Shown: piece after piece, positions 2,775-36,163 of the stretch
How positions within the stretch are numbered: the stretch's first letter is position 1
Layout: the number at the start of each line of letters is the position of its first letter
NCBI GenBank assembly: GCA_021292105.1
Contig: CM037873.1
Location: 15,288,051 to 15,352,050 of the forward strand
DNA from: Anadara kagoshimensis
Taxonomy: Eukaryota; Mollusca; Bivalvia; Arcoida; Arcidae
DNA length: 64,000 nucleotides
Direction: 5' to 3'
Notes under the pieces: model-generated
The model's database searches: none
The model's input: only the letters and a program-made list of their open reading frames with translations
Told to the model about the DNA's origin: nothing
Program-made: the position numbers and the translations under genes

Positions 2775-2811
2775 CAAAACTCACTCATTCTCATTTTTCA
2801 TTTCATTTGTG

Positions 2812-2820
2812 AGAAAATAT
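2812..2820. repeat. 9-bp target-site duplication, left copy
   Basis: AGAAAATAT directly before the first base of the foldback element; identical to 35052-35060. Confidence 0.85.
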
Positions 2821-3044
2821 ACTGGTGTGAAGCTAGCCCGCAATTCTAGCCCGCAATTTTTTTATATATCATCATCAGCGGGCAATTCAATTTTATTTAA
2901 TACGGTTAGTCCTAATTCATTCGATTTATTAATATTTGATATTTAGGGCGACCTGGTTTGCCACAACTTTTTATAAAGACCACCTGTATATTAAGACCAC
3001 AGGACCGTGATTCTACGTGTGATTACGAAATTAAGCATAGGCGT
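2821..3044 (+). repeat. foldback element, left terminal inverted repeat (non-satellite part)
   Basis: About 224 bp with a short direct repeat at the tip ('tagcccgcaattctagcccgc') and a later 'gaccacctgtatattaagac' segment. It is about 85-90% identical by eye to the reverse complement of 34826-35051, with a few small indels. Confidence 0.85.
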
Positions 3045-6000
3045 TTTCCCCATCTAGGCCTTTTAACCACGGGTAGATCTATCCAATTGCAACATTTGGT
3101 GAAAATTTCAAGAACCCTAGAGGGGTAGAACGGGTCTTACGAGAGCTCAGAAGGACCATACCCCCCTTTTGATATGTGATTTCGTAAGGACCTGCTACGT
3201 TTGAAGTAGCGTACACAGAGAAAATGCGTTTCCCCATCTAGGCCTTTTAACCACGGGTAGATCTATCCAATTGCAACATTTGGTGAAAATTTCAAGAACC
3301 CTAGAGGGGTAGAACGGGTCTTACGAGAGCTCAGAAGGACCATACCCCCCTTTTGATATGTGATTTCGTAAGGACCTGCTACGTTTGAAGTAGCGTACAC
3401 AGAGAAAATGCGTTTCCCCATCTAGGCCTTTTAACCACGGGTAGATCTATCCAATTGCAACATTTGGTGAAAATTTCAAGAACCCTAGAGGGGTAGAACG
3501 GGTCTTACGAGAGCTCAGAAGGACCATACCCCCCTTTTGATATGTGATTTCGTAAGGACCTGCTACGTTTGAAGTAGCGTACACAGAGAAAATGCGTTTC
3601 CCCATCTAGGCCTTTTAACCACGGGTAGATCTATCCAATTGCAACATTTGGTGAAAATTTCAAGAACCCTAGAGGGGTAGAACGGGTCTTACGAGAGCTC
3701 AGAAGGACCATACCCCCCTTTTGATATGTGATTTCGTAAGGACCTGCTACGTTTGAAGTAGCGTACACAGAGAAAATGCGTTTCCCCATCTAGGCCTTTT
3801 AACCACGGGTAGATCTATCCAATTGCAACATTTGGTGAAAATTTCAAGAACCCTAGAGGGGTAGAACGGGTCTTACGAGAGCTCAGAAGGACCATACCCC
3901 CCTTTTGATATGTGATTTCGTAAGGACCTGCTACGTTTGAAGTAGCGTACACAGAGAAAATGCGTTTCCCCATCTAGGCCTTTTAACCACGGGTAGATCT
4001 ATCCAATTGCAACATTTGGTGAAAATTTCAAGAACCCTAGAGGGGTAGAACGGGTCTTACGAGAGCTCAGAAGGACCATACCCCCTTTTGATATGTGATT
4101 TCGTAAGGACCTGCTACGTTTGAAGTAGCGTACACAGAGAAAATGCGTTTCCCCATCTAGGCCTTTTAACCACGGGTAGATCTATCCAATTGCAACATTT
4201 GGTGAAAATTTCAAGAACCCTAGAGGGGTAGAACGGGTCTTACGAGAGCTCAGAAGGACCATACCCCCCTTTTGATATGTGATTTCGTAAGGACCTGCTA
4301 CGTTTGAAGTAGCGTACACAGAGAAAATGCGTTTCCCCATCTAGGCCTTTTAACCACGGGTAGATCTATCCAATTGCAACATTTGGTGAAAATTTCAAGA
4401 ACCCTAGAGGGGTAGAACGGGTCTTACGAGAGCTCAGAAGGACCATACCCCCCTTTTGATATGTGATTTCGTAAGGACCTGCTACGTTTGAAGTAGCGTA
4501 CACAGAGAAAATGCGTTTCCCCATCTAGGCCTTTTAACCACGGGTAGATCTATCCAATTGCAACATTTGGTGAAAATTTCAAGAACCCTAGAGGGGTAGA
4601 ACGGGTCTTACGAGAGCTCAGAAGGACCATACCCCCCTTTTGATATGTGATTTCGTAAGGACCTGCTACGTTTGAAGTAGCGTACACAGAGAAAATGCGT
4701 TTCCCCATCTAGGCCTTTTAACCACGGGTAGATCTATCCAATTGCAACATTTGGTGAAAATTTCAAGAACCCTAGAGGGGTAGAACGGGTCTTACGAGAG
4801 CTCAGAAGGACCATACCCCCCTTTTGATATGTGATTTCGTAAGGACCTGCTACGTTTGAAGTAGCGTACACAGAGAAAATGCGTTTCCCCATCTAGGCCT
4901 TTTAACCACGGGTAGATCTATCCAATTGCAACATTTGGTGAAAATTTCAAGAACCCTAGAGGGGTAGAACGGGTCTTACGAGAGCTCAGAAGGACCATAC
5001 CCCCCTTTTGATATGTGATTTCGTAAGGACCTGCTACGTTTGAAGTAGCGTACACAGAGAAAATGCGTTTCCCCATCTAGGCCTTTTAACCACGGGTAGA
5101 TCTATCCAATTGCAACATTTGGTGAAAATTTCAAGAACCCTAGAGGGGTAGAACGGGTCTTACGAGAGCTCAGAAGGACCATACCCCCCTTTTGATATGT
5201 GATTTCGTAAGGACCTGCTACGTTTGAAGTAGCGTACACAGAGAAAATGCGTTTCCCCATCTAGGCCTTTTAACCACGGGTAGATCTATCCAATTGCAAC
5301 ATTTGGTGAAAATTTCAAGAACCCTAGAGGGGTAGAACGGGTCTTACGAGAGCTCAGAAGGACCATACCCCCCTTTTGATATGTGATTTCGTAAGGACCT
5401 GCTACGTTTGAAGTAGCGTACACAGAGAAAATGCGTTTCCCCATCTAGGCCTTTTAACCACGGGTAGATCTATCCAATTGCAACATTTGGTGAAAATTTC
5501 AAGAACCCTAGAGGGGTAGAACGGGTCTTACGAGAGCTCAGAAGGACCATACCCCCCTTTTGATATGTGATTTCGTAAGGACCTGCTACGTTTGAAGTAG
5601 CGTACACAGAGAAAATGCGTTTCCCCATCTAGGCCTTTTAACCACGGGTAGATCTATCCAATTGCAACATTTGGTGAAAATTTCAAGAACCCTAGAGGGG
5701 TAGAACGGGTCTTACGAGAGCTCAGAAGGACCATACCCCCCTTTTGATATGTGATTTCGTAAGGACCTGCTACGTTTGAAGTAGCGTACACAGAGAAAAT
5801 GCGTTTCCCCATCTAGGCCTTTTAACCACGGGTAGATCTATCCAATTGCAACATTTGGTGAAAATTTCAAGAACCCTAGAGGGGTAGAACGGGTCTTACG
5901 AGAGCTCAGAAGGACCATACCCCCCTTTTGATATGTGATTTCGTAAGGACCTGCTACGTTTGAAGTAGCGTACACAGAGAAAATGCGTTTCCCCATCTAG

Positions 6001-9000
6001 GCCTTTTAACCACGGGTAGATCTATCCAATTGCAACATTTGGTGAAAATTTCAAGAACCCTAGAGGGGTAGAACGGGTCTTACGAGAGCTCAGAAGGACC
6101 ATACCCCCCTTTTGATATGTGATTTCGTAAGGACCTGCTACGTTTGAAGTAGCGTACACAGAGAAAATGCGTTTCCCCATCTAGGCCTTTTAACCACGGG
6201 TAGATCTATCCAATTGCAACATTTGGTGAAAATTTCAAGAACCCTAGAGGGGTAGAACGGGTCTTACGAGAGCTCAGAAGGACCATACCCCCCTTTTGAT
6301 ATGTGATTTCGTAAGGACCTGCTACGTTTGAAGTAGCGTACACAGAGAAAATGCGTTTCCCCATCTAGGCCTTTTAACCACGGGTAGATCTATCCAATTG
6401 CAACATTTGGTGAAAATTTCAAGAACCCTAGAGGGGTAGAACGGGTCTTACGAGAGCTCAGAAGGACCATACCCCCCTTTTGATATGTGATTTCGTAAGG
6501 ACCTGCTACGTTTGAAGTAGCGTACACAGAGAAAATGCGTTTCCCCATCTAGGCCTTTTAACCACGGGTAGATCTATCCAATTGCAACATTTGGTGAAAA
6601 TTTCAAGAACCCTAGAGGGGTAGAACGGGTCTTACGAGAGCTCAGAAGGACCATACCCCCCTTTTGATATGTGATTTCGTAAGGACCTGCTACGTTTGAA
6701 GTAGCGTACACAGAGAAAATGCGTTTCCCCATCTAGGCCTTTTAACCACGGGTAGATCTATCCAATTGCAACATTTGGTGAAAATTTCAAGAACCCTAGA
6801 GGGGTAGAACGGGTCTTACGAGAGCTCAGAAGGACCATACCCCCCTTTTGATATGTGATTTCGTAAGGACCTGCTACGTTTGAAGTAGCGTACACAGAGA
6901 AAATGCGTTTCCCCATCTAGGCCTTTTAACCACGGGTAGATCTATCCAATTGCAACATTTGGTGAAAATTTCAAGAACCCTAGAGGGGTAGAACGGGTCT
7001 TACGAGAGCTCAGAAGGACCATACCCCCCTTTTGATATGTGATTTCGTAAGGACCTGCTACGTTTGAAGTAGCGTACACAGAGAAAATGCGTTTCCCCAT
7101 CTAGGCCTTTTAACCACGGGTAGATCTATCCAATTGCAACATTTGGTGAAAATTTCAAGAACCCTAGAGGGGTAGAACGGGTCTTACGAGAGCTCAGAAG
7201 GACCATACCCCCCTTTTGATATGTGATTTCGTAAGGACCTGCTACGTTTGAAGTAGCGTACACAGAGAAAATGCGTTTCCCCATCTAGGCCTTTTAACCA
7301 CGGGTAGATCTATCCAATTGCAACATTTGGTGAAAATTTCAAGAACCCTAGAGGGGTAGAACGGGTCTTACGAGAGCTCAGAAGGACCATACCCCCCTTT
7401 TGATATGTGATTTCGTAAGGACCTGCTACGTTTGAAGTAGCGTACACAGAGAAAATGCGTTTCCCCATCTAGGCCTTTTAACCACGGGTAGATCTATCCA
7501 ATTGCAACATTTGGTGAAAATTTCAAGAACCCTAGAGGGGTAGAACGGGTCTTACGAGAGCTCAGAAGGACCATACCCCCCTTTTGATATGTGATTTCGT
7601 AAGGACCTGCTACGTTTGAAGTAGCGTACACAGAGAAAATGCGTTTCCCCATCTAGGCCTTTTAACCACGGGTAGATCTATCCAATTGCAACATTTGGTG
7701 AAAATTTCAAGAACCCTAGAGGGGTAGAACGGGTCTTACGAGAGCTCAGAAGGACCATACCCCCCTTTTGATATGTGATTTCGTAAGGACCTGCTACGTT
7801 TGAAGTAGCGTACACAGAGAAAATGCGTTTCCCCATCTAGGCCTTTTAACCACGGGTAGATCTATCCAATTGCAACATTTGGTGAAAATTTCAAGAACCC
7901 TAGAGGGGTAGAACGGGTCTTACGAGAGCTCAGAAGGACCATACCCCCCTTTTGATATGTGATTTCGTAAGGACCTGCTACGTTTGAAGTAGCGTACACA
8001 GAGAAAATGCGTTTCCCCATCTAGGCCTTTTAACCACGGGTAGATCTATCCAATTGCAACATTTGGTGAAAATTTCAAGAACCCTAGAGGGGTAGAACGG
8101 GTCTTACGAGAGCTCAGAAGGACCATACCCCCCTTTTGATATGTGATTTCGTAAGGACCTGCTACGTTTGAAGTAGCGTACACAGAGAAAATGCGTTTCC
8201 CCATCTAGGCCTTTTAACCACGGGTAGATCTATCCAATTGCAACATTTGGTGAAAATTTCAAGAACCCTAGAGGGGTAGAACGGGTCTTACGAGAGCTCA
8301 GAAGGACCATACCCCCCTTTTGATATGTGATTTCGTAAGGACCTGCTACGTTTGAAGTAGCGTACACAGAGAAAATGCGTTTCCCCATCTAGGCCTTTTA
8401 ACCACGGGTAGATCTATCCAATTGCAACATTTGGTGAAAATTTCAAGAACCCTAGAGGGGTAGAACGGGTCTTACGAGAGCTCAGAAGGACCATACCCCC
8501 CTTTTGATATGTGATTTCGTAAGGACCTGCTACGTTTGAAGTAGCGTACACAGAGAAAATGCGTTTCCCCATCTAGGCCTTTTAACCACGGGTAGATCTA
8601 TCCAATTGCAACATTTGGTGAAAATTTCAAGAACCCTAGAGGGGTAGAACGGGTCTTACGAGAGCTCAGAAGGACCATACCCCCCTTTTGATATGTGATT
8701 TCGTAAGGACCTGCTACGTTGAAGTAGCGTACACAGAGAAAATGCTTTCCCCCATCTAGGCCTTTTAACCACGGGTAGATCTATCCAATTGCAACATTTG
8801 GTGAAAATTTCAAGAACCCTATAGGGGTAGAACGGGTCTTACGAGAGCTCAGAAGGACCATACCCCCTTTTGATATGTGATTTCGTAAGGACCTGCTACG
8901 TTTGAAGTAGCGTACACAGAGAAAATGCGTTTCCCCATCTAGGCCTTTTAACCACGGGTAGATCTATCCAATTGCAACATTTGGTGAAAATTTCAAGAAC

Positions 9001-12000
9001 CCTAGAGGGGTAGAACGGGTCTTACGAGAGCTCAGAAGGACATACCCCCCTTTTGATATGTGATTTCGTAAGGACCTGCTACGTTTGAAGTAGCGTACAC
9101 AGAGAAAATGCGTTTCCCCATCTAGGCCTTTTAACCACGGGTAGATCTATCCAATTGCAACATTTGGTGAAAATTTCAAGAACCCTAGAGGGTAGAACGG
9201 GTCTTACGAGAGCTCAGAAGGACCATACCCCCCTTTTGATATGTGATTTCGTAAGACCTGCTACGTTTGAAGTAGCGTACACAGAGAAAATGCGTTTCCC
9301 CATCTAGGCCTTTTAACCACGGGTAGATCTATCCAATTGCAACATTTGGTGAAAATTTCAAGAACCCTAGAGGGGTAGAACGGGTCTTACGAGAGCTCAA
9401 GGACCATACCCCCTTTTGATATGTGATTTCGTAAGGACCTGCTACGTTTGAAGTAGCGTACACAGAGAAAATGCGTTTCCCCATCTAGGCCTTTTAACCA
9501 CGGTAGATCTATCCAATTGCAACATTTGGTGAAAATTTCAAGAACCCTAGAGGGGTAGAACGGTCTTACGAGAGCTCAGAAGGACCATACCCCCCTTTTG
9601 ATATGTGATTTCGTAAGGACCTGCTACGTTTGAAGTAGCGTACACAGAGAAAATGCGTTTCCCCCCTCTAGGCCTTTTAACCACGGGTAGATCTATCCAA
9701 TTGCAACATTTGGTGAAAATTTCAAGAACCTAGAGGGTAGAACGGGTCTTACGAGAGCTCAGAAGGACCATACCCCCCTTTTGATATGTGATTTCGTAAG
9801 GACCTGCTACGTTTGAAGTAGCGTACACAGAGAAAATGCGTTTCCCCATCTAGGCCTTTTAACCACGGGTAGATCTATCCAATTGCAACATTTGGTGAAA
9901 ATTTCAAGAACCCTAGAGGGGTAGAACGGGTCTTACGAGAGCTCAGAAGGACCATACCCCCCTTTTGATATGTGATTTCGTAAGGACCTGCTACGTTTGA
10001 AGTAGCGTACACAGAGAAAATGCGTTTCCCCATCTAGGCCTTTTAACCACGGGTAGATCTATCCAATTGCAACATTTGGTGAAAATTTCAAGAACCCTAG
10101 AGGGGTAGAACGGGTCTTACGAGAGCTCAGAAGGACCATACCCCCCTTTTGATATGTGATTTCGTAAGGACCTGCTACGTTTGAAGTAGCGTACACAGAG
10201 AAAATGCGTTTCCCCATCTAGGCCTTTTAACCACGGGTAGATCTATCCAATTGCAACATTTGGTGAAAATTTCAAGAACCTAGAGGGGTAGAACGGGTCT
10301 TACGAGAGCTCAGAAGGACCATACCCCCCTTTTGATATGTGATTTCGTAAGGACCTGCTACGTTTGAAGTAGCGTACACAGAGAAAATGCGTTTCCCCAT
10401 CTAGGCCTTTTAACCACGGGTAGATCTATCCAATTGCAACATTTGGTGAAAATTTCAAGAACCCTAGAGGGGTAGAACGGGTCTTACGAGAGCTCAGAAG
10501 GACCATACCCCCCTTTTGATATGTGATTTCGTAAGGACCTGCTACGTTTGAAGTAGCGTACACAGAGAAAATGCGTTTCCCCATCTAGGCCTTTTAACCA
10601 CGGGTAGATCTATCCAATTGCAACATTTGGTGAAAATTTCAAGAACCCTAGAGGGGTAGAACGGGTCTTACGAGAGCTCAGAAGGACCATACCCCCCTTT
10701 TGATATGTGATTTCGTAAGGACCTGCTACGTTTGAAGTAGCGTACACAGAGAAAATGCGTTTCCCCATCTAGGCCTTTTAACCACGGGTAGATCTATCCA
10801 ATTGCAACATTTGGTGAAAATTTCAAGAACCCTAGAGGGGTAGAACGGGTCTTACGAGAGCTCAGAAGGACCATACCCCCCTTTTGATATGTGATTTCGT
10901 AAGGACCTGCTACGTTTGAAGTAGCGTACACAGAGAAAATGCGTTTCCCCATCTAGGCCTTTTAACCACGGGTAGATCTATCCAATTGCAACATTTGGTG
11001 AAAATTTCAAGAACCCTAGAGGGGTAGAACGGGTCTTACGAGAGCTCAGAAGGACCATACCCCCCTTTTGATATGTGATTTCGTAAGGACCTGCTACGTT
11101 TGAAGTAGCGTACACAGAGAAAATGCGTTTCCCCATCTAGGCCTTTTAACCACGGGTAGATCTATCCAATTGCAACATTTGGTGAAAATTTCAAGAACCC
11201 TAGAGGGGTAGAACGGGTCTTACGAGAGCTCAGAAGGACCATACCCCCTTTTGATATGTGATTTCGTAAGGACCTGCTACGTTTGAAGTAGCGTACACAG
11301 AGAAAATGCGTTTCCCCATCTAGGCCTTTTAACCACGGGTAGATCTATCCAATTGCAACATTTGGTGAAAATTTCAAGAACCCTAGAGGGGTAGAACGGG
11401 TCTTACGAGAGCTCAGAAGGACCATACCCCCCTTTTGATATGTGATTTCGTAAGGACCTGCTACGTTTGAAGTAGCGTACACAGAGAAAATGCGTTTCCC
11501 CATCTAGGCCTTTTAACCACGGTAGATCTATCCAATTGCAACATTTGGTGAAAATTTCAAGAACCCTAGAGGGGTAGAACGGGTCTTACGAGAGCTCAGA
11601 AGGACCATACCCCCTTTTGATATGTGATTTCGTAAGGACCTGCTACGTTTGAAGTAGCGTACACAGAGAAAATGCGTTTCCCCATCTAGGCCTTTTAACC
11701 ACGGGTAGATCTATCCAATTGCAACATTTGGTGAAAATTTCAAGAACCCTAGAGGGGTAGAACGGGTCTTACGAGAGCTCAGAAGGACCATACCCCCCTT
11801 TTGATATGTGATTTCGTAAGGACCTGCTACGTTTGAAGTAGCGTACACAGAGAAAATGCGTTTCCCCATCTAGGCCTTTTAACCACGGGTAGATCTATCC
11901 AATTGCAACATTTGGTGAAAATTTCAAGAACCCTAGAGGGGTAGAACGGGTCTTACGAGAGCTCAGAAGGACCATACCCCCCTTTTGATATGTGATTTCG

Positions 12001-15000
12001 TAAGGACCTGCTACGTTTGAAGTAGCGTACACAGAGAAAATGCGTTTCCCCATCTAGGCCTTTTAACCACGGGTAGATCTATCCAATTGCAACATTTGGT
12101 GAAAATTTCAAGAACCCTAGAGGGGTAGAACGGGTCTTACGAGAGCTCAGAAGGACCATACCCCCCTTTTGATATGTGATTTCGTAAGGACCTGCTACGT
12201 TTGAAGTAGCGTACACAGAGAAAATGCGTTTCCCCATCTAGGCCTTTTAACCACGGTAGATCTATCCAATTGCAACATTTGGTGAAAATTTCAAGAACCC
12301 TAGAGGGGTAGAACGGGTCTTACGAGAGCTCAGAAGGACCATACCCCCTTTTGATATGTGATTTCGTAAGGACCTGCTACGTTTGAAGTAGCGTACACAG
12401 AGAAAATGCGTTTCCCCATCTAGGCCTTTTAACCACGGGTAGATCTATCCAATTGCAACATTTGGTGAAAATTTCAAGAACCCTAGAGGGGTAGAACGGG
12501 TCTTACGAGAGCTCAGAAGGACCATACCCCCCTTTTGATATGTGATTTCGTAAGGACCTGCTACGTTTGAAGTAGCGTACACAGAGAAAATGCGTTTCCC
12601 CATCTAGGCCTTTTAACCACGGGTAGATCTATCCAATTGCAACATTTGGTGAAAATTTCAAGAACCCTAGAGGGGTAGAACGGGTCTTACGAGAGCTCAG
12701 AAGGACCATACCCCCCTTTTGATATGTGATTTCGTAAGGACCTGCTACGTTTGAAGTAGCGTACACAGAGAAAATGCGTTTCCCCATCTAGGCCTTTTAA
12801 CCACGGGTAGATCTATCCAATTGCAACATTTGGTGAAAATTTCAAGAACCCTAGAGGGGTAGAACGGGTCTTACGAGAGCTCAGAAGGACCATACCCCCC
12901 TTTTGATATGTGATTTCGTAAGGACCTGCTACGTTTGAAGTAGCGTACACAGAGAAAATGCGTTTCCCCATCTAGGCCTTTTAACCACGGGTAGATCTAT
13001 CCAATTGCAACATTTGGTGAAAATTTCAAGAACCCTAGAGGGGTAGAACGGGTCTTACGAGAGCTCAGAAGGACCATACCCCCCTTTTGATATGTGATTT
13101 CGTAAGGACCTGCTACGTTTGAAGTAGCGTACACAGAGAAAATGCGTTTCCCCATCTAGGCCTTTTAACCACGGTAGATCTATCCAATTGCAACATTTGG
13201 TGAAAATTTCAAGAACCCTAGAGGGTAGAACGGGTCTTACGAGAGCTCAGAAGGACCATACCCCCTTTTGATATGTGATTTCGTAAGGACCTGCTACGTT
13301 TGAAGTAGCGTACACAGAGAAAATGCGTTTCCCCATCTAGGCCTTTTAACCACGGGTAGATCTATCCAATTGCAACATTTGGTGAAAATTTCAAGAACCC
13401 TAGAGGGGTAGAACGGGTCTTACGAGAGCTCAGAAGGACCATACCCCCCTTTTGATATGTGATTTCGTAAGGACCTGCTACGTTTGAAGTAGCGTACACA
13501 GAGAAAATGCGTTTCCCCATCTAGGCCTTTTAACCACGGGTAGATCTATCCAATTGCAACATTTGGTGAAAATTTCAAGAACCCTAGAGGGGTAGAACGG
13601 GTCTTACGAGAGCTCAGAAGGACCATACCCCCCTTTTGATATGTGATTTCGTAAGGACCTGCTACGTTTGAAGTAGCGTACACAGAGAAAATGCGTTTCC
13701 CCATCTAGGCCTTTTAACCACGGGTAGATCTATCCAATTGCAACATTTGGTGAAAATTTCAAGAACCCTAGAGGGGTAGAACGGGTCTTACGAGAGCTCA
13801 GAAGGACCATACCCCCCTTTTGATATGTGATTTCGTAAGGACCTGCTACGTTTGAAGTAGCGTACACAGAGAAAATGCGTTTCCCCATCTAGGCCTTTTA
13901 ACCACGGGTAGATCTATCCAATTGCAACATTTGGTGAAAATTTCAAGAACCCTAGAGGGGTAGAACGGGTCTTACGAGAGCTCAGAAGGACCATACCCCC
14001 TTTTGATATGTGATTTCGTAAGGACCTGCTACGTTTGAAGTAGCGTACACAGAGAAAATGCGTTTCCCCATCTAGGCCTTTTAACCACGGGTAGATCTAT
14101 CCAATTGCAACATTTGGTGAAAATTTCAAGAACCCTAGAGGGGTAGAACGGGTCTTACGAGAGCTCAGAAGGACCATACCCCCCTTTTGATATGTGATTT
14201 CGTAAGGACCTGCTACGTTTGAAGTAGCGTACACAGAGAAAATGCGTTTCCCCATCTAGGCCTTTTAACCACGGGTAGATCTATCCAATTGCAACATTTG
14301 GTGAAAATTTCAAGAACCCTAGAGGGGTAGAACGGGTCTTACGAGAGCTCAGAAGGACCATACCCCCTTTTGATATGTGATTTCGTAAGGACCTGCTACG
14401 TTTGAAGTAGCGTACACAGAGAAAATGCGTTTCCCCATCTAGGCCTTTTAACCACGGGTAGATCTATCCAATTGCAACATTTGGTGAAAATTTCAAGAAC
14501 CCTAGAGGGGTAGAACGGGTCTTACGAGAGCTCAGAAGGACCATACCCCCCTTTTGATATGTGATTTCGTAAGGACCTGCTACGTTTGAAGTAGCGTACA
14601 CAGAGAAAATGCGTTTCCCCATCTAGGCCTTTTAACCACGGGTAGATCTATCCAATTGCAACATTTGGTGAAAATTTCAAGAACCCTAGAGGGGTAGAAC
14701 GGGTCTTACGAGAGCTCAGAAGGACCATACCCCCCTTTTGATATGTGATTTCGTAAGGACCTGCTACGTTTGAAGTAGCGTACACAGAGAAAATGCGTTT
14801 CCCCATCTAGGCCTTTTAACCACGGGTAGATCTATCCAATTGCAACATTTGGTGAAAATTTCAAGAACCCTAGAGGGGTAGAACGGGTCTTACGAGAGCT
14901 CAGAAGGACCATACCCCCCTTTTGATATGTGATTTCGTAAGGACCTGCTACGTTTGAAGTAGCGTACACAGAGAAAATGCGTTTCCCCATCTAGGCCTTT

Positions 15001-23639: not shown

Positions 23640-23676
<37 letters not shown>

Positions 23677-25679
23677 TTTATTTTTATTTATTTATTTATT
23701 TATTTATTTGGAAAAGCCGAGACTTCGAAGCTTTTTGGTAAATTCAAAAGAAGTAAGCTAATGGAATTTAGTCGAGTTTGCAAATAAGCATATGATAGAC
23801 GCCAGGGTGGATGACGCATTGCAAAAAATGAGGTCAAAGGTCACTGAATGGAAAAAAAATTAATTATATCCTGGACATAATGTGCCCTTATCTTGCAAAA
23901 ATCATATAACTTTTATTTGCAATAATTTTGAGATAAATAGAACATATTGTATAGTGATGATTGTTTTTAAAACTGCATGACGTTAAATAAACAAAATTTA
24001 AGATAAATATTGCCAAAATCTTGTCCAAATACATATAGAATAATTAATTTTTGAAACATAAATTTGTGAAGATGTAAGAAAGGATCATATCCACCAAGTT
24101 TTACTATGCCGTCTGCAAAACATCATATACATGTATATAGAAATTAATCAAAGTACTGAGAGTACTCTAGGTAGAGATTTAGCTTTTAGCTATATATAAA
24201 ATATTAATATATGTTATGTTCTGAATGTTACAATAAAACAGAAGTAAAATAAATATTTTCATCAGATAATAATATTACTAAGGACATATGTTTAATCGAT
24301 ATGAATGTGATGTTTTCAATGGCGTTTAAGTAATATTTAGTGCTAAGATGCTGTTGATTTTGTGACAATTGGATTACTCTGATTATCAAAATGGACATAG
24401 CGAACACTTATACACTTTTTAACGTAGTAATATAAAGAGAAAAATTTGCAATTGAAAACATTTTTAATATCCTATGCAAATAAGAATGTAAAACAATAAA
24501 TGATTCAACAGACAAACAAGACCAGATAAATACATATCGGCACCACTGAGTATAAATTCCCGAGATTTGGACGGGAATCACCAGTAGTTTTAAAGGCAAA
24601 ATCCGCTTTTTCATTAAAAAGTATATAGATGATAGGACAAAAACGAGGAATAAATAAATAAGGAACTATTATACCTTTTTTGATGTTAGTTTCCTTAATG
24701 GCTGCCATTCATGTTTAAATAATTTCTTGAAATGGGTAGATCATCACTAGGGTTGGTACTGAAGATCATAAAAAGGTCAAAGGTCAAATGAGTGAATTAT
24801 ATCATGAAATATACATATAAACTTTCTAATACTAGAAAATTCGGCATATTTATGAGTAATTACCTCAAAATAATATAAAACTAAGTTTTAGAAGTATATT
24901 ATGTATCAAACGAAATCGACCAGAATTTGCACTTGAGGTAGACCAAAGTATAGTGGATGAGTTAAATATTTTATTTTCAGTGTTGATGGCATATATTGTT
25001 TAACAATCTTGATGATATTAAAATATATATTAGTAATATTTGTTTTTATAATGCTTTGGGATTTTGGTTTAGACATGGATTGGTATGTTTTTTATGATAA
25101 CTTCATATTTATGATATGATGCAATGCTGAAAGCTATTATTCTTTTTCACTTTTTCTCGATTCTTGGAGGTTTTGACAGTTCTAAAGCAACTTTTTCCTT
25201 ACTACTTTCCAAAAGAAAATTTATGTTTGAAATTGAAATTGTTGGAATTGTTCATTTTCTTACAGACATAACAATATCATTATGATCATGTACTTGTGTT
25301 TTGACAAATATATTAACATTGATAATGATATGTAATGATTCCTTAAACTGTCTCAGTTTTTCAGCACTAGAAATCAGCCAAAATAGGCGCTTAGTAAGAC
25401 CACTCGTGCATTTTGTATGTACTAATCTGTAAAACTTGATGTAATGATGTTTTGGTGTTTATCTCAAAATGTGGTTGATAAACAAGTTATTTAGATGGGG
25501 TAAACGGGGTTGTGGTGATAAACTTAGAACTGACAGAAAAATAGAATGGAATTGAAAAGGAAATTTCAAACTTTTGGGTATAAAATATAATTTGGGAGAT
25601 ATAGATTTTTACCCAGAAAATTATACAGATTAACTTGAGTCCTTTAAGAAGCTTCTGTTCTGAATGATTTGTCATTCTT
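22113..25679. other. foldback core, left part: no gene, probable decayed satellite unit
   Basis: AT-rich. Near 22490-22560, 'ctgaagtggcgtacatggag' and 'ggtctttaggcttgtta' resemble the satellite's 'ttgaagtagcgtacacagag' and 'catctaggcctttta', suggesting one old unit. Small open frames (for example 22671-22856 and 24408-24708) have no recognised motif. No transposase was found. Confidence 0.5.
23590..23710. repeat. (TTAA)n / (TTTA)n microsatellite
   Basis: Runs of 'attaattaatt' followed by 'tttatttattta' over about 120 bp in the core. Confidence 0.92.
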
Positions 25680-26610
25680 AAGTGCCAGATCTTCCAAACG
25701 ACATAATAAATGAAATAAATAGATTGATGTTCTCTTTCATATGGAACATCAAATTGAATAAAATAAAACGAGGTGTATTGGTTTTTTGAATTATGATGAA
25801 GGTAGTTTAAAGGTATCCCATATCAAGTTCTTTTGTCAAAAGATTTCATGGGTGCAGAAAATCCGCTCTGCCATTTTACCATGGAAATGTCTGCTTCTGG
25901 ATGATCTCGAAGAGTTCGAGGGTGCTAATGTTTTTAAAGATGGGTTTGCTTCAATCACACCGTTGATTAATAAATTCTGGTGATCGGTGATCACTGCATG
26001 GGCCAATTTACCAAATAATTACATCACAAACACAAATGACGTAATGTCACAATATCTCTGGTAAAATCCTAACATTAAAACAAATAAAACTTTTGGAAAA
26101 TGTGGGCAAAAGAAAATATTAATTTTATAAAGGTTTTAACAAATGATGAAGGAAATATTATGTCTTATAATGAGTTTACAGCTAAGTTTGATTTTAATAT
26201 TAATAATCTAAATTATTACACCTTGATTGATACAATTCCGGAAATCTGGAAAAGTGCAATCCAGCTACAAGAAAATCCGCTTAGAGAAGTCAGAAATAGT
26301 TTTATAACTAAATTGAAATAAAGGAAAATAGTTTCCAAAATGTTTTACATATATATCTAAAAGAAATTAGAAATTTTGCACAAAAATAAGAGATTGGATG
26401 TGTTGATTAATTATGTTTTCTTGTCACCGATGAAACAAAAAATCAAGATTTCCAGTATAAAATTAAACACAATATTAATTTTATAAGCAGCCGAACAATG
26501 AAATGCAAGCTTCTTGAAACTGAACTATGCAGTTTTTGTTGGAAAGTTAAAGAAACTGAACAACATTTATTTTTAGAATGTCAGTATGTAAAAATATATT
26601 AAACATATTT
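25680..26610 (+). pseudogene. decayed LINE ORF2 C-terminal fragment (L1/Tx1-like)
   Basis: Reading across frames gives NDIINEINRLMFSFIWN then KLNKIKRGVL, NYDEGSLKVSHIKFF, ISWVQKI, LWYNPNIK-like and TNDEGNIMSYNEF pieces, the order found downstream of reverse transcriptase in L1/Tx1-type non-LTR elements. Near 26520-26590 comes CSFCWKVKETEQHLFLEC, a C-x2-C-x8-H-x4-C knuckle typical of that C-terminus. Several stops and frameshifts (for example in the T run near 25780 and around 25983-26100) break it, so it is a relic. It lies inside the foldback core and probably arrived by independent insertion. The reverse transcriptase and endonuclease domains are absent. Confidence 0.72.
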
Positions 26611-28204
26611 TTCGATCAAGATAAAAATCAAATCCCACGTGATTATAGAAAATGAAGTAAATAATGTTTATTTGGAAAGAAGCACAAAGTAATCATTTTT
26701 GGCATTTTTCATTTATGCATTTTAATAATTAAATAGTATATCCATATATGTAGAATGTCCAATACATTTCCCCAATACAATATTGCAATAGAAAAGATGT
26801 GTCTCTACAAACAGATCGAAATGTATTCCATATATCAGTATTCCACGACAAGGGCACACAAAATTAGAATAAACTGGGAACATGTTGAGGTAGGCCCATA
26901 CATTGAAAACATATTTTGAAATTTTAATATGTTGTACATGGGCATTAACCACTCAACATGCCAAAATTTCAAGGTAGGTATTCAGAATACTTAAGAAAAT
27001 TCTGAAGCGCCATCTGGTGGACATTTTCACGACATAAATGGTCAAAAATAATAAGCTTTAATACTTTTTGCCATGCTTAGAATCCAAAAGAGTCTTGCAT
27101 TTAAATTTAACATTATGTCATAAAGATAATTTGGACTAATTGATTTTACTTCCGGACATGCGGTATTTTTCTACTGCGCCGCCTATCAAGAAAGAACATT
27201 AAAATTTCGGAAAACTAAAAGTAACACCCTTTCGTTATTTTGATGTTTTATAAAAAATACGATCGCTGATTTTAACATGTGTTGCGCATGAATATATAAG
27301 TTTAGAAAAAATAGAGGGTAGTCAAGCTACTTTTTTCATAAAATTGCATTAAAATCAAAACCAAGATTAGAAACCTTATTCCTTACATAAGAACTCACCA
27401 TTAATGTCCTAGGATACAATTTTAAACTCAATGTTTTTCGTTTGGTGTTAACAAATAAGCAAAAACAGTGATAATGAGCTATTTGGCTTTGCAAAACAAA
27501 ACGAATTTGAAATACCATATTATCTGTACCCCTAGCAACCCTTACCAATACCAACGAATTAAATTGGAAAGAGGAGTCGTATACATTGATGAAGGGTTCT
27601 TGATTCTAGGCCGCTGAAATGAAAAGCAAATACAAGAGCATAGTCAAAATTTGACACTGAGAAAAATTATTATGAAGTATGTTTATTGAACAACCGTGCG
27701 TTTGCGTCGTACTATTTTTATTTGAATAACCCTTCTCCCAAAAAGTCACATAAAGCAGCGATATAAAACACAGTACCTCAAATTTTAAACGACGTTCTCA
27801 AATCTTTCAAATATTTAGATTTGCGCCCTCAAAAGTGTAGATCTTCCTTATTTCCGTTAAATTATACATTTTGTTCTTTAAAAATAATACACAACATTGG
27901 TGTTGTGAATTATAAGCTTTTGTGAATGCAGATAATTATTCTAAATGATACGCATTAGAGCGTCCCGCCATAATTCGGTAGGTGCCGAACACCATTTATT
28001 CGTGACGTCATAGGTAGAAAGACGTAAAATCGGAGAGTTTGTCCTTACGCACAAAACGACGACGTCACCATGGTATGGATATACCTTAAAAGATTGTGGG
28101 ATTTATAAGTTGTTATAATAATAGATGTGTGTATAAATTGTTTTTGTTAATGCCTTTTAATTCTGTTCTGTAACATATACAGAGAAATAAAAATATTTAG
28201 AGCA
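26611..28204. other. foldback core, middle: no gene recognised
   Basis: AT-rich. Contains a CTCF-like motif at 27007-27020 and a TGACGTCA near 28002. The open frames at 26722-26952 and 27336-27554 (minus) show no recognisable domain. Confidence 0.4.
27007..27020 (-). promoter_or_regulatory. CTCF-consensus-like site
   Basis: The minus strand reads CCACCAGATGGCGC, matching all 14 positions of CCASYAGRKGGCRS. A single motif match says nothing about binding. Confidence 0.35.
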
Positions 28205-28350
28205 CTGTATAAGGGTTTTTACACTCGCTAGTGTGTTTTTATTTTGTCAATCTCTGAATACGGTGTTTTTATACTCACTGAATAAGGTGTTTGATTTTGA
28301 TACTCGCTAAATAATGTTTTTTAGTTTTGATACTAACTGAACAAGGTGTC
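28205..28350. repeat. short degenerate tandem repeat, about 40 bp unit
   Basis: 'tactcactgaataaggtgtt' and variants ('tactcgctaaataatgtttt', 'tactaactgaacaaggtgtc') recur about four times. Confidence 0.7.
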
Positions 28351-30307
28351 TTATTATAAAACGGAATACAAAAGTAAGTCATCCGGTTTCATTGAAATAA
28401 CGATATTCTTTATACAATCTGAAATCATTTTAATTATCTTTATTAATTAAACACTAGATATTTAACATTTTTATTACATTTATTCTGATGATCACATTAC
28501 TAGTAAGTGAAACTCAAGTCAAGCATTAGCTAGAACAAAATGTCGCCTTAGTAATTTAGCTATAAAAATATGTAGTGTAATTAATGTGCGATTACTTTTC
28601 GAGTTTGTTCAGTGGAATATGTCATTCAATTATTTATCTTACAAAAACTCGTCTGTAGTTTACGTTACATAATAAACATCATCAGAAACATCAATAGTGA
28701 TGTACCGTAATTCGTCAGTCAGTTATTTAGTTATTAAAGGTGTACCCAGTAATTCAAACAAGTGCGCGTCTAGTTGTTTGCAGAACAATTACACTAGGAT
28801 TAAGATTTATTTATTTGAAATGTTTTGCAACTTTTACCCAATTGAGATTTAATGTTAAATCTGTTCTTTCTCTGAATTATAATTAGACTCTAATGGTTGT
28901 GAAAAAGTGTCATTGAGAAATTAGGATATACGTTAGACAAAAGCATTGTATTCAAGACATCAGTATTCAGTTACATGTACACGTTAACGCTTAATATTGA
29001 CAGTTCTTTTTAAAATATATGTGATTTTGGCACTTTCAAAGCGGGTGTTATATAAACAAAATGTTAAACTACAACCACAATTTCCTTATTTCCGGTACTC
29101 ATATTGCTTGTTTTATATAAGTATTCGAATGAAATGATCGTTAGAATTACACTTATTTGAACCTTTGACACCAAAATGACTTAACATCGTAACATCTGGA
29201 TTGGAATCCACTCTAAAACCACTATATGTATCCCAAGCAAAAATTTCAGAATGAATTGTCAGTTATTGACCATTGACAAAAATATCATCAAATGTAAATT
29301 TAAGCATAAAAATAGAGTTGTCAGCCAGACTATTACATATTATTGTTTTGCAATGACTGTTTTAAAGATACAGTGCCAAAATGAGAAAATGCATTCGTCA
29401 CTCGGTTTAGTTTTGAAATATTAATACATTGAGAATTTAACATTACATCACATACTTTTAATTATGTGTTTCCTCATACGGTGTGGCTGAATGATTTAGG
29501 GGTAAAAAACAATTATATCTTCTCAATGAATTTATTTGAAATTTGTCATACATCATTAAATAACATAGTTATATATATACATGTATATAGTAACCCACTA
29601 TAGGTATAGTTCATATGGTGTAATATTGTTGTGAAAATAATCCTGGAGTCGTTTGTGTACATCCAACACCCAGATTTAACCTATCATTGACGTCATTGTC
29701 CTAACATCTTGACAGAATAGACACTTATCAATGAAATTTAAAACATCAGATTTTGCATATAAATTACGGTTTTAGAATTTACTCTCATATTAATTATTTA
29801 CCAAATAAAAATTTAACTTACAAAATTAATTCCATAAAACCACATTTAAAATAAACGGACAACATTTCTACACTTAAAATTGTTTAAACGTACTTGGAAA
29901 CGTTAAATTCATATCATTTAAACAGACGATTATGAGTATATGTATCTATCGCTTAAATAAACATTTATATTAGTTGTTTTATTATAATTATGGTTACAGA
30001 ATAAGTAAATGGTGATGTTGTATTTGCCGTTTAGAACTCATAGTCAACCTAATACATAGAGCACTTTCAGTACTTTGATTAATTCTGTAAACTTTATATG
30101 TGCCATAATGCGTTTGAAAAGGTACACCTGGTGCATAATTATGCAGTTTCTTCTTACATCGACACTATAATTTTTATTTTATGGTTAAAATAAATAAATA
30201 TTGTATTTAGTTTTTCAACTTGTTACATTTTGTAATAAATGTTGGAAATATGATTTTCAACATTCCATGTAATTAAAAACAGAAAACTAGTTATCATAGT
30301 AATTCCG
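28351..30307. other. foldback core, right part: no gene recognised
   Basis: AT-rich unique sequence up to the start of the inverted satellite. No open frame with a recognisable motif. Confidence 0.4.
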
Positions 30308-33300
30308 AGCTCTTGTTAGTCCCGTTCTTCGCCTCTAGGGTTCTTGAAAACCAAATGTTGCAATTGGATGGATCTACCCGTGATTAAAAGCCCTAGATGG
30401 GGAAAGTAATTTTCTCTGTGTACGCCACTTCAAACGTAGCAGGTCCTTACGATATCACATATCAAAAGAGGGGTATGGTCTTTCTGAGCTCTCGTAAGAC
30501 ACGTTCTATCCCTCTAGGCTTCTTGAAATTTTCACCAAATGTTGCAATTGGATAGATCGACCCGTGATTAAAAGCCGTAGATGGGGAAAGTAATTTTTCT
30601 CTGTGTACGCCACTTCAAACGTAGGAGGTCCTTACGATATCACATATCAAAAGGGGGGTATGGTCCTTCTGGCTCTCATAAGACCCGTTCTACCCCTCTA
30701 GGGTTCTTGAAATTTTCACCAAATGTTGCAATTGGACAGATCTACCGGTGATTAAAAGCCGTAGATGGGGAAAGTAATTTTTCTCTGTGTACGCCACTTC
30801 AAACGTAGCAGGTCCTTACGATATCACATATCAAAAAGGGGGTATGGTCCTTCTGGCTCTCGTAAGACCCGTTCTACCCCTCTAGGGTTCTTGAAATATT
30901 TACCAAATGTTGCAATTGGATAGATCTACCGGTGATTAAAAGCCGTAGATGGGAAAGTAATTTTTCTCTGTGTACGCTACTTCAAACGTAGCAGGTACTT
31001 ACGAAATCACAAATCAAAAGGGGGGTATGGTCCTTCTGAGCTCTCGTAAGACCCGTTCTACCCCTCTAGGGTTCTTAAAATTTTCACCAAATGTTCCAAT
31101 TGGATAGATCTACCCGTGGTTAAAAGCCCTAGATGGGGAAACGCATTTTCTCTGTGTACGCTTCTTCAAACGTAGCAGGTCCTTACGAAATCACATATCA
31201 AAAGGGGGGTATGGTCCTTCTGAGCTCTCGTAAGACCCGTTCTACCCCTCTAGGGTTCTTGAAATTTTCACCAAATGTTGCAATTGGATAGATCTACCCG
31301 TGGTTAAAAGCCCTAGATGGGGAAACGCATTTTCTCTGTGTACGCTTCTTCAAACGTAGCAGGTCCTTACGAAATCACAAATCAAAAGGGGGGTATGGTC
31401 CTTCTGAGCTCTAGTAAGACCCGTTCTACCCCTCTAGGGTTCTTGAAATTTTCACCAAATGTTGCAATTGGATAGATCTACCCGTGGTTAAAAGGCCTAG
31501 ATGGGGAAACGCATTTTCTCTGTGTACGCTTCTTCAAACGTAGCAGGTCCTTACGAAATCACAAATCAAAAGGGGGGTATGGTCCTTCTGAGCTCTCGTA
31601 AGACCCGTTCTACCCCTCTAGGGTTCTTGAAATTTTCACCAAATGTTGCAATTGGATAGATCTACCCGTGGTTAAAAGCCCTAGATGGGGAAACGCATTT
31701 TCTCTGTGTACGCTTCTTCAAACGTAGCAGGTCCTTACGAAATCACATATCAAAAGGGGGGTATGGTCCTTCTGAGCTCTCGTAAGACCCGTTCTACCCC
31801 TCTAGGGTTCTTGAAATTTTCACCAAATGTTGCAATTGGATAGATCTACCCGTGGTTAAAAGTCCTAGATGAAGAAACGCATTTTCTCTGTGTACGCTTC
31901 TTCAAACGTAGCAGGTCCTTACGAAATCACATATCAAAAGGGGGTATGGTCCTTCTGGCTCTCGTAAGACCCGTTCTACCCTCTAGGGTTCTTGAAATTT
32001 TCACCAAATGTTGCAATTGGACAGATCTACCGGTGATTAAAAGCCGTAGATGGGGAAAGTAATTTTTCTCTGTGTACGCCACTTCAAACGTAGCAGGTCC
32101 TTACGATATCACATATCAAAAGGGGTGTATGGTCCTTTTGACCTCTCGTAAGACCCGTTCTACCCCTCTAGGGTTCTTGAAATTTTCACCAAATGTTGTA
32201 ATTGGATAGATCAACCCGAGATTAAAAGCCGTAGATGGGGAAATTAATTTTTCTCTGTGTACGCCACTTCAAACGTAGCAGGTCCTTACGATATCACATA
32301 TCAAAAAGGGGGTATGGTCCTTCTGGCTCTCGTAAGACCCGTTCTACCCCTCTAGGGTTCTTGAAATTTTTACCAAATGTTGCAATTGGATAGATCTACC
32401 GGTGATTAAAAGCCGTAGATGGGGAAAATAATTTTTCTCTGTGTACGCTACTTCAAACGTAGCAGGTCCTTACGAAATCACAAATCAAAAGGGGGGTATG
32501 GTCCTTCTGAGCTCTCGTAAGACCCGTTCTACCCCTCTAGGGTTCTTGAAATTTTCACCAAATGTTGCAATTGGATAGATCTACCCGTGGTTAAAAGCCC
32601 TAGATGGGGAAACGCATTTTCTCTGTGTACGCTTCTTCAAACGTAGCAGGTCCTTACGAAATCACATATCAAAAGGGGGTATGGTCCTTCTGAGCTCTCG
32701 TAAGACCCGTTCTACCCCTCTAGGGTTCTTGAAATTTTCACCAAATGTTGCAATTGGACAGATCTACCGGTGATTAAAAGCCGTAGATGGGGAAAGTAAT
32801 TTTTCTCTGTGTACGCCACTTCAAACGTAGCAGGTCCTTACGATATCACATATCAAAAGGGGTGTATGGTCCTTTTGACCTCTCGTAAGACCCGTTCTAC
32901 CCCTCTAGGGTTCTTGAAATTTTCACCAAATGTTGTAATTGGATAGATCAACCCGAGATTAAAAGCCGTAGATGGGAAATTAATTTTTCTCTGTGTACGC
33001 CACTTCAAACGTAGCAGGTCCTTACGATATCACATATCAAAAAGGGGGTATGGTCCTTCTGGCTCTCGTAAGACCCGTTCTACCCCTCTAGGGTTCTTGA
33101 AATTTTTACCAAATGTTGCAATTGGATAGATCTACCGGTGATTAAAAGCCGTAGATGGGGAAAATAATTTTTCTCTGTGTACGCTACTTCAAACGTAGCA
33201 GGTCCTTACGAAATCACAAATCAAAAGGGGGTATGGTCCTTCTGAGCTCTCGTAAGACCCGTTCTACCCCTCTAGGGTTCTTGAAATTTTCACCAAATGT

Positions 33301-34825
33301 TGCAATTGGATAGATCTACCCGTGGTTAAAAGCCCTAGATGGGGAAACGCATTTTCTCTGTGTACGCTTCTTCAAACGTAGCAGGTCCTTACGAAATCAC
33401 ATATCAAAAGGGGGGTATGGTCCTTCTGAGCTCTCGTAAGACCCGTTCTACCCCTCTAGGGTTCTTGAAATTTTCACCAAATGTTGCAATTGGACAGATC
33501 TACCGGTGATTAAAAGCCGTAGATGGGAAAGTAATTTTTCTCTGTGTACGCCACTTCAAACGTAGCAGGTCCTTACGATATCACATATCAAAAGGGGTGT
33601 ATGGTCCTTTTGACCTCTCGTAAGACCCGTTCTACCCTCTAGGGTTCTTGAAATTTTCACCAAATGTTGTAATTGGATAGATCAACCCGAGATTAAAAGC
33701 CGTAGATGGGGAAATTAATTTTTCTCTGTGTACGCCACTTCAAACGTAGCAGGTCCTTACGATATCACATATCAAAAAGGGGGTATGGTCCTTCTGGCTC
33801 TCGTAAGACCCGTTCTACCCCTCTAGGGTTCTTGAAATTTTTACCAAATGTTGCAATTGGATAGATCTACCGGTGATTAAAAGCCGTAGATGGGGAAAAT
33901 AATTTTTCTCTGTGTACGCTACTTCAAACGTAGCAGGTCCTTACGAAATCACAAATCAAAAGGGGGTATGGTCCTTCTGAGCTCTCGTAAGACCCGTTCT
34001 ACCCCTCTAGGGTTCTTGAAATTTTCACCAAATGTTGCAATTGGATAGATCTACCCGTGGTTAAAAGCCCTAGATGGAGAAACGCATTTTCTCTGTGTAC
34101 GCTTCTTCAAACGTAGCAGGTCCTTACGAAATCACATATCAAAAGGGGGGTATGGTCCTTCTGAGCTCTCGTAAGACCCGTTCTACCCCTCTAGGGTTCT
34201 TGAAATTTTCACCAAATGTTGCAATTGGATAGATCTACCCGTGGTTAAAAGGCCTAGATGGGGAAACGCATTTTCTCTGTGTACGCTTCTTCAAACGTAG
34301 CAGGTCCTTACGAAATCACAAATCAAAAGGGGGTATGGTCCTTCTGAGCTCTCGTAAGACCCGTTCTACCCCTCTAGGGTTCTTGAAATTTTCACCAAAT
34401 GTTGCAATTGGATAGATCTACCCGTGGTTAAAAGCCCTAGATGGGGAAACGCATTTTCTCTGTGTACGCTTCTTCAAACGTAGCAGGTCCTTACGAAATC
34501 ACATATCAAAAGGGGGGTATGGTCCTTCTGAGCTCTCGTAAGACCCGTTCTACCCCTCTAGGGTTCTTGAAATTTTCACCAAATGTTGCAATTGGATAGA
34601 TCTACCCGTGGTTAAAAGGCCTAGATGGGGAAACGCATTTTCTCTGTGTACGCTTCTTCAAACGTAGCAGGTCCTTACGAAATCACAAATCAAAAGGGGG
34701 TATGGTCCTTCTGAGCTCTCGTAAGACCCGTTCTACCCCTCTAGGGTTCTTGAAATTTTCACAAAATGTTGCAATTGGATAGATCTACCCGTGGTTAAAA
34801 GCCCTAGATGGGGAAACTCATTTTG
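30308..34825 (-). repeat. 184-bp satellite array, right arm, inverted, about 25 diverged copies
   Basis: The same unit on the opposite strand ('gatggggaaa...cgcattttctctgtgtacgc' read on plus). Copies fall into classes: 'gccacttcaaacg' with 'gattaaaagccgtag', and 'gcttcttcaaacg' with 'ggttaaaagccctag'. From about 31940 to 34150 a four-unit, 736-bp higher-order repeat occurs three times ('acagatctaccgg' at 32021, 32758 and 33494). Confidence 0.95.
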
Positions 34826-35051
34826 CGCCCTATGCGTAATTTCGTATTCACACTTAGAATCACGGTTCCTGTGGTCTTAATATACAGGTGGTCTTTATAA
34901 AAAGTTGTGTGCAATAGCAGGTCGCCCTAAATATCAAATATTTATAAATGGAATGATATTAGGATTAACCGTATTTAAATAAAATCGAATTGCCCGCTTG
35001 ATGATATTTAAAAAATCGCGGGCTAGAATTGCGGGCTAGCTTCACACCAGT
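34826..35051 (-). repeat. foldback element, right terminal inverted repeat (non-satellite part)
   Basis: Mirror of 2821-3044. It keeps about ten bases at the junction with the satellite ('gcaaaatgag' read outward) that the left end lacks. Confidence 0.85.
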
Positions 35052-35060
35052 AGAAAATAT
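35052..35060. repeat. 9-bp target-site duplication, right copy
   Basis: AGAAAATAT directly after the last base of the element; identical to 2812-2820. Confidence 0.85.
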
Positions 35061-35980
35061 TTATGTACAGGTAGTTTCTGGTCACGTAATTAAACGGTAT
35101 TATGCTTTTGAAATTTGTCTTGTTTCTGCAATGAAAACAAATGTAAAAAGGTAGTAGTGAAATCCATTTGCACCATTTTAGCGTCCTTTTTGCGCCAGGA
35201 TATCACTCTCTCCTCAAACTTTTAAAAAAAAAACCTTAGTCCTTCTGCGCGAATATTGTACCCCAACTGCCCTATTTTATTGATATGAAAATACCTTTTG
35301 AATTCCCTGATTCTTTATCCTAGATAAAATTCTCAAATAATTAAAAATCACTATACATAAAAATAACACATAATTATAATACTGTATTAAATGTCACTGA
35401 CGGGGCCGACGCACATATGAAAATAAAATTATTGTTTTTTTGAGCGGCCGATCACGAAGATTTTAAACATCGTTTAAAGGTCACCGGTCACCAAAACCGA
35501 TTTTTTAGTACTATTTTCCGAAAGATTACATAATAAAGAGAGTCGATTTAGCCACAAATAACATTTTTGGAATCATTTCTGTCTGTTTTACAGCGTACAA
35601 TTAAGTCCTGAAACTGTTGAAACACGGTCTTGTCTCCCTTTGTAGTTAAAGGGCACAAGTGACGCTGAAGGTGTTATCACAGCTATTAAGTAACGGAACC
35701 TTTTATAGTGAACTGTATTTATTACCCAGATTTGTCAGTAATAAACTATCATGTTTTATGTATTTGTTTATTTTCAGCATTTGATATTTCAATTTTCTTC
35801 AGCAGAAACAAAAATAATAATAAACATAATAATTAATAAAGAAAGAAAGAAACAGCTATATTTGTGTTTGATCTAAGTATGATATACTATTACTAATACT
35901 TTAACAAAACATAATTTTACATATCTTTTGATTTTATTTATTCATTTATTCTTTTTGTTATTTAGATACACATCATTACG

Positions 35981-35982
<2 letters not shown>
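35061..35982. other. right flank of the foldback element, no gene
   Basis: AT-rich unique sequence just outside the target duplication. Confidence 0.4.
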
Positions 35983-36019
<37 letters not shown>

Positions 36020-36107
36020 TAAATTATTCTACTGATTGAAAATCATTAAAGTAAATATTTCAAGATTTATGCAAGATTAAGACTTATAATAATTCACTGA
36101 ATACTTG

Positions 36108-36158: not shown

Positions 36159-36163
<5 letters not shown>

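Follow-up and report, generated by a model that had tools for sequence, protein, structure and literature searches.

A window of 64,000 nucleotides from the bivalve Anadara kagoshimensis (assembly GCA_021292105.1, contig CM037873.1, positions 15,288,051 to 15,352,050 of the forward strand) was analyzed, and it contains at positions 2821-35051 an element of 32,231 bp in which two inverted arms enclose a core of 8.2 kb. We interpret this element, with a probability of about 0.93, as a non-autonomous foldback-type terminal-inverted-repeat transposon that belongs to a large, recently active family, carries satellite arrays as its arms and depends on a helper acting in trans. In the proposed plan, each arm would consist of a unique end of ~235 bp followed by a 184-bp satellite array, and the two opposed arms would surround a core of ~8.3 kb with no detectable coding capacity. 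A DDE transposase supplied in trans, most likely of the Mutator/Rehavkus kind, would cut and join the ends and so generate the 9-bp target duplications. The arrays would move along with the element, as suggested by linked unit variants common to independent insertions, and would gain or lose whole units and become homogenised within each arm, probably by unequal exchange, slippage or gap repair. The origin and spread of satellite arrays is an old question, and few cases tie an array to a transposon base by base. Here, a single genome of a mollusc, not a fly, offers young insertions, exact duplications, empty sites, near-identical cores and arms of ~3-104 units, and this family makes it possible to set the timing of unit gain, unit loss and homogenisation against that of transposition.

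Ends, target duplications and empty sites

An earlier sequence-only reading of this DNA had proposed that the outer ends match as inverted repeats and that a perfect 9-bp duplication flanks the whole, and both proposals were borne out. The duplication, AGAAAATAT, adjoins the element on either side (Table 1). In the window, this 9-mer occurred at both element borders and at one further forward position (26111), with 0 matches on the reverse strand. The 20-bp terminus ACTGGTGTGAAGCTAGCCCG was found at exactly two sites in 64 kb at ≤3 mismatches, 2821 (+) and 35051 (-), compared with a mean of 0 in 100 shuffles. The inverted alignment of the two ends showed 95% identity over the outer ~790 bp and 92% over the 226 columns of the satellite-free portion. 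The left unique repeat is 224 bp long, against ~235 bp at other ends; it lacks ~11 bp where it joins the array. Two direct 13-bp repeats, CTAGCCCGCAATT, adjoin the terminus and are possible binding sites of the transposase. The divergence between the two ends (8%) was considered as an insertion clock and dropped after 57 ends had been aligned. These ends fell into two types, grouped by eye, with 0-5 and 6-10 substitutions from the majority, each type being present on either arm, and the left end of the window copy showed private small indels. Since ends differ by type on either arm and this left end carries private indels, the difference between the two ends of the window copy mostly predates the insertion or represents consensus error. 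A search for the exact 25-base end in viral_contigs gave 0 matches, which is no evidence either way.

Paralogous copies of the interrupted repeat provided an empty site with one AGAAAATAT, which had been suggested earlier as a check. The flanks of the element, joined through a single AGAAAATAT, gave 1,793 candidates, and all 40 places scored carried an unbroken match, with 87-97% identity. In the three empty sites inspected, the left homology ended at 2820, the right homology started at 35052, and the overlap was exactly 9 bases. These uninterrupted paralogous empty sites indicate that the element split a dispersed repeat of ~3 kb.

The family was surveyed in the same assembly (1,115,223,567 bases, 36 contigs). 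A mollusc host is well supported, since a muscle-myosin exon of this genome had its best PDB matches among molluscan striated myosins (135 and 131 bits, against 113 for the next group). All family counts are lower bounds biased to the best matches. Searches with the ends yielded 268, 269 and 273 first-look candidates; the best 40 were scored per query, and 40 of 40 matched each time, with 93-100% identity. The sequence-only reading had expected other copies to stop at the same base and to carry 9-bp duplications. Fifty-six other end copies began at the identical terminal motif. The 80 listed ends formed 19 facing pairs, or 20 with the window copy, and an exact 9-bp duplication was present in 13 of the 20 (12 of 19 without the window copy), with 13 different sequences. 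Among the 1,596 pairs that can be formed from 57 ends, no further match was seen even with one mismatch, except for the end C7:17476135, whose flank is identical to that of a verified C6 copy. The verified copies measured 10.1-32.2 kb (median 22.3 kb), and the window copy is the longest. At the left core edge, 32 of the best 40 scored copies spanned the whole query at 90-100%; at the right core edge (2 kb), 36 of 40 scored copies reached ≥98%, and 16 of 40, the window copy included, rounded to 100% over the full length. The element belongs to a young, recently active family.

Two observations concern the surroundings of individual copies. The same flank and outer array units stand beside the ends at C7:17476135 (L030) and C6:28184999 (L032), on two chromosomes. 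This may reflect a duplication, ectopic exchange between the elements, or an assembly misjoin within the array. The three ends at C17:3310980, 3333076 and 3355094 (L023, L010 and L016) have the same orientation, a spacing of 22.0-22.1 kb and a nearly identical flank, and represent a tandem duplication that includes the element.

Satellite arms, core and unit turnover

The presence of the same 184-bp satellite inside each end in opposite orientation, claimed by the sequence-only reading, was confirmed with Tandem Repeats Finder (TRF): the row for the right array (30303-34824, 24.6 copies) has the reverse-complement unit of the left array. Of the 103 whole units in the left array, 76 are identical. 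The remaining units hold 43 differences, of which 5 only are substitutions, all within units 31-37; the others are mostly 1-base deletions inside short single-base runs and look like consensus errors. Because most differences resemble such errors, "about 100 near-identical units" is a safer description of the left array than an exact count, and its 19-kb length is the length as assembled. The right array contains 24 whole units with 91-99.5% identity to the left consensus. Its outermost units alternate, a 4-unit higher-order repeat follows, and decayed units lie toward the core; it looks older than the left array. Descent of the unit from the element end, as in the element Tetris discussed below, was tried and received no support: the best local score (19) was lower than the 95% level (23) of 300 shuffles, which used 2-base blocks rather than a strict dinucleotide shuffle.

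The longest reading frame in the core of the window copy is at most 111 codons, and a six-frame search of this core gave no Pfam domain above the cut-off. The sole weak match was zf-RVT (E = 0.03), in a piece whose frames, going by their motifs, we take to resemble a long interspersed nuclear element (LINE) reverse transcriptase; the same piece gave 0 matches against PDB. In the copy with the longest core (14 kb), the extra length is a nested non-coding insert of ~5.8 kb. The ends of this insert (L090, C5:58290001-58296500) are inverted and internally repetitive, and it is perhaps another foldback family.

Arm lengths were determined only for copies in which the end and the core edge were both listed. 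The left arms measured 0.94-19.3 kb (median 8.6 kb; 17 of 40 copies usable), with 14 of the 17 above 2 kb, and the right arms 1.25-9.3 kb (median 4.0 kb; 21 of 38 copies usable, without the two of 40 whose match missed the right edge). For three left arms, the start was extrapolated by ≤151 bases. A left-arm value of 15.2 kb was removed, as the end belonged to another element, and the lengths were recomputed. The lengths cluster at a single phase of 184 bp (Rayleigh p ~2e-5 for left and ~5e-6 for right arms), with best-fitting periods of 183.5 and 182.75. This clustering in either arm indicates fixed junctions and gain or loss of whole units. Across copies, the unit number ranges from ~3 to 104 per arm despite nearly identical cores; the C1 copy, which is 10.1 kb long, has an exact duplication and was fully read, carries just 3.9 and 3.2 units. 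Ten copies in which the right 2 kb of the core round to 100% have right arms of 1.25-8.2 kb, so the unit number changes far faster than the bases.

The outer units of 38 ends share one consensus, and 8 of the 38 arms show no substitution at unit positions 17-177 in the sampled outer units. Some variants are fixed within an arm: T131C and A128T were present in 8 of 8 units at C14:6480828, and G174A and T181A in 8 of 8 at C9:15689384. The copy closest to the window copy by its core lies at a different site, C8:3.6 Mb (14 mismatches and 49 gap openings in 8,216 columns). In its left arm, 50 of 53 sampled units are identical to the left unit of the window copy; in its right arm, the variants differ, and the 4-unit repeat of the window type is absent. 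Linked variants recurred at unrelated insertions, namely A128T+T131C at C17:3.3 Mb, C14:6.48 Mb and C8:5.69 Mb, T158C+G159A+A164G at C15:34.34 Mb and C3:68.3 Mb, and C23T+G27C in the right arm of the window copy, C8:24.6 Mb and C8:5.69 Mb. Because of this recurrence in independent insertions, the arrays seem to travel with the element and then to be reshaped arm by arm; exchange between elements is an alternative source of the shared variants.

Alternatives, putative helper transposase and target preference

Several points weigh against the interpretation as a mobile foldback element. Seven of the 20 facing pairs have no exact duplication. At C19:5559858, AACATTTCG stands on either side, with 7 additional bases on the left; the pair C5:40624897/40661855 spans two different elements; in the pair of C7:17476135, one flank duplicates a flank on another chromosome; a run of N lies inside one pair; and three pairs are unexplained. 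None of the copies read had a transposase inside it, and the lengths of the arrays are subject to the assembly. As the ends were sampled by score, the figures describe the best-matching ends only. Many satellite kinds are common in the window (33 TRF rows), and two unrelated arrays might flank 8 kb of ordinary DNA by chance or after an inversion. We consider this extremely improbable: it is refuted by the conserved order of end, array, core, array and end, by the 12 other exact duplications and by the empty sites. The same shared order, duplications and empty sites uphold the earlier proposal that ~19 kb and 4.5 kb of satellite form part of one mobile unit. Its further idea of a direct route from transposon to satellite DNA is conditional on arrays that exist apart from the element. 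A different history, in which the element transposed while small, with 3-4 units per arm, and the long arrays grew in place later and never moved as such, is possible, although the odds are clearly below even. It agrees with the small C1 copy, whose few units stand at the consensus sequence, with the near-uniform left arrays of the window and C8 copies, which fit recent growth, and with the right arms of these two copies, which have no arm-typical pattern in common despite near-identical cores. Long left arms are, however, usual, and growth in place would have to recur in most copies; A128T+T131C and similar linked variants at unrelated sites fit carried arrays or exchange between elements.

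The helper expected by the sequence-only reading, an autonomous copy with a Mutator-like element (MULE) transposase, was not found by Pfam searches of two cores or with the genome-wide MULE and Merlin models. The MULE model (PF10551) gave 76 matches in the whole genome, the nearest of which lay 287 kb from any of the 80 listed ends; ~270 candidate ends exist, and an autonomous copy may be among the unlisted ones. The Pfam searches covered the core of the window copy and, in six frames, 6.5 kb of the copy whose core is longest, and gave no helper; the C1, C8, L078 and L079 copies were compared with the window core, and C1, L078 and L079 were additionally listed for reading frames. Since these searches found no helper, the family is non-autonomous as far as it was read. 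A many-copy MULE was rejected as the helper after two copies were examined, as their ends differ from the family ends. The MULE family at L083 (C7:6124489) and L084 (C10:13221460) has about a dozen equal-score matches, frames of ≤497 codons and a repeated CATTACCGCGACATT at its ends.

By analogy, the 9-bp duplication, the long ends and the 13-bp subterminal repeats point to a relative of Mutator as the helper. The element has a duplication within the 8-11 bp of MULEs and long terminal inverted repeats, and its 9-bp duplication, ends within 26-400 bp and repeat arrays fit the minisatellite-bearing Rehavkus group, whose transposase carries a PHD finger; a transposase with matching ends was not found in these searches, and we do not claim membership of Mutator. 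Another transposase that makes 8-9-bp duplications (Merlin, P/Galileo-like or undescribed) could have served instead, with chances that fall not far short of even. The distance of the listed ends from any PF10551 match and the different ends of the examined MULE favor it, and Galileo, a P-type element, is likewise reported to have internally repetitive long arms. On the other hand, the Merlin model gave 4 matches only in the whole genome, all with stop codons, and Merlin has terminal GG whereas the ends here read ACTGG. P elements generate 7-8-bp duplications. Helitrons and Helentrons have neither a target duplication nor terminal inverted repeats, and the element described here has both.

The flanks of the family members were enriched in a further motif. 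At ≤3 mismatches, CTGTCGAAAGTTTAAC occurred 105 times in 60,259 bases of element flank (1.74 per kb). By comparison, there were 2 occurrences in the rest of the window (31,760 bases), 2 in MULE loci (26,229 bases) and 0 in other loci (24,782 bases). It was located ≤150 bp from 22 of 57 ends and, in 10 of 13 verified insertions, on at least one side; the window, C9 and C4 copies lack it. The motif marks the inverted ends of a ~216-bp repeat (copy at L027:1759-1974), which from its build we take to be like a miniature inverted-repeat transposable element (MITE). This repeat is common and old: it gave 2,155 candidates, and most of the 40 scored were at 71-92%, many of them partial. In 13 of 35 long flanks, CTGTCGAAAGTTTAAC started 20-60 bp from the insertion, against 5.6% elsewhere in the same flanks (binomial p = 2e-8, with the 20-60 bp interval chosen post hoc and a few flanks coming in pairs from a single insertion). 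The test excluded three duplicate flanks, L044 and the 150-bp flanks. Because the ~216-bp repeat is old and the giant elements are young, the giant elements most likely chose sites near the MITE-like repeat. A broader proposal, to which we give even chances, is that of a self-dispersing satellite: the giant family, made up mostly of satellite DNA, would seed inverted arrays over the chromosomes, reset and re-expand their unit number within the time span of single transposition bursts, and land preferentially 20-60 bp from the ends of one old MITE-like family. If so, one mobile family would determine how much of a satellite there is as well as where it lies. Inverted satellite arms that reach 19 kb and are present at many sites probably also provide substrates for assembly errors and for ectopic exchange.

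Other repeats are present in the window. A 145-bp tandem array, TGACCTTGACCTTTGAACCCATGACCT, lies at 57736-59508 and 54777-55537 and is 83-88% identical to an insert in L084, the C10 MULE copy, which contains a nested 145-bp array of this kind; because it is common to this insert, the window array was probably carried by a mobile element too. A 29-bp minisatellite at 39470-40201 forms two adjacent blocks of opposite orientation and may be a small foldback element from a different family. Further long arrays consist of 54 bp x 49 (60614-63260) and 92 bp x 13 (51014-52209).

Table 1. Features of the element and of the repeat it interrupts (window positions)
Feature	Position	Strand	Basis
Dispersed repeat, left portion	1277..2820	+	L080 comparison, 96%
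Left target site duplication, 9 bp, AGAAAATAT	2812..2820	+	sequence match, family end survey, empty-site comparison
Left unique terminal inverted repeat, 224 bp	2821..3044	+	inverted alignment, alignment of ends
Two direct 13-bp repeats adjoining terminus, CTAGCCCGCAATT	2833..2858	+	TRF window listing
Left arm, 184-bp satellite array, 103.8 units	3045..22112	+	TRF, unit alignment
Core, 8,190 bp	22113..30302	+	core-edge searches; common to 40 scored copies at either edge
Junction of ~253-bp deletion relative to C1, L078 and L079 copies	25480..25481	.	core comparison
Probable LINE reverse transcriptase remnant	25762..26600	+	weak zf-RVT, neighboring frames
Right arm, inverted 184-bp array, ~24.5 units	30303..34816	-	TRF, unit alignment
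4-unit higher-order repeat x3 (units 5-16 counted from outside)	~31870..34085	-	approximate, reckoned from unit length
Right unique terminal inverted repeat, 235 bp	34817..35051	-	inverted alignment, alignment of ends
Right target site duplication, 9 bp, AGAAAATAT	35052..35060	+	sequence match, family end survey, empty-site comparison
Dispersed repeat, right portion	35052..36419	+	L080 comparison, 94%

Comparison with known systems

The element shows the features of the foldback class, that is, long inverted arms of tandem repeats, an unequal and variable repeat number, and a duplication of ~9 bp. The closest plan is that of Tetris from Drosophila virilis, a non-autonomous foldback-like element with a non-coding middle, whose arm consists of a unique flanking domain followed by ~220-bp tandem repeats and whose three complete copies have 8-9-bp duplications (PMC4079207). 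Allelic copies of Tetris one unit apart are described, and its units also form satellite-like arrays with as many as 66 copies (PMC4079207). This likeness rests on described structure and not on sequence comparison. The arms of Tetris reach 1,735 bp, against 19.3 kb here, and its three complete copies compare with 13 duplicated-site copies and ~270 candidate ends here; the Tetris unit shares 37 bp (~80%) with the flanking domain (PMC4079207), whereas the similarity of unit and end was not significant in our case. The Mutator/foldback family Tm1 of root-knot nematodes is similar in its composite inverted ends, in a tandem-repeat number that differs between ends, in duplications of 8-10 bp, mostly 9 bp (45 of 53), and in two ends that are on average 93% identical (PMC3169594). 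It differs by its repeats of 13-15 bp, its element size of 1-2.6 kb and a known autonomous copy with a transposase (PMC3169594). Rehavkus and other MULEs are alike in their 9-bp (8-11) duplications, long terminal inverted repeats (26-400 bp in Rehavkus) and internal minisatellite (PMC6446971), and Aedes MULEs (Muta1) have short subterminal repeats, 9-15 bp long (PMC5225508), to which the two 13-bp repeats found here can be compared. Unlike in these groups, no transposase was found here in the searches described above, and the arrays lie on both sides and are of satellite length.

Satellite-like arrays within mobile elements have reportedly also been noted in an oyster satellitome study. Tandem-repeat MITEs and Helitron/Helentron elements of bivalves contain such arrays in the center of the element, whereas here the arrays are inverted arms accompanied by inverted ends and 9-bp duplications (PMC12628747). 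Giant eukaryotic transposons are similarly oversized, but through genes, and the present element through satellite (PMC6431247). In the open-licence literature, no paper on a foldback element in molluscs was found, which does not prove that there is none in print. The plan is known from Tetris, while the scale and the target bias differ. What is new here is the arm length and the target bias, together with the abundance of young copies in a single genome, the proof that duplications and empty sites supply, and a unit number that varies in whole steps while the core stays nearly constant.

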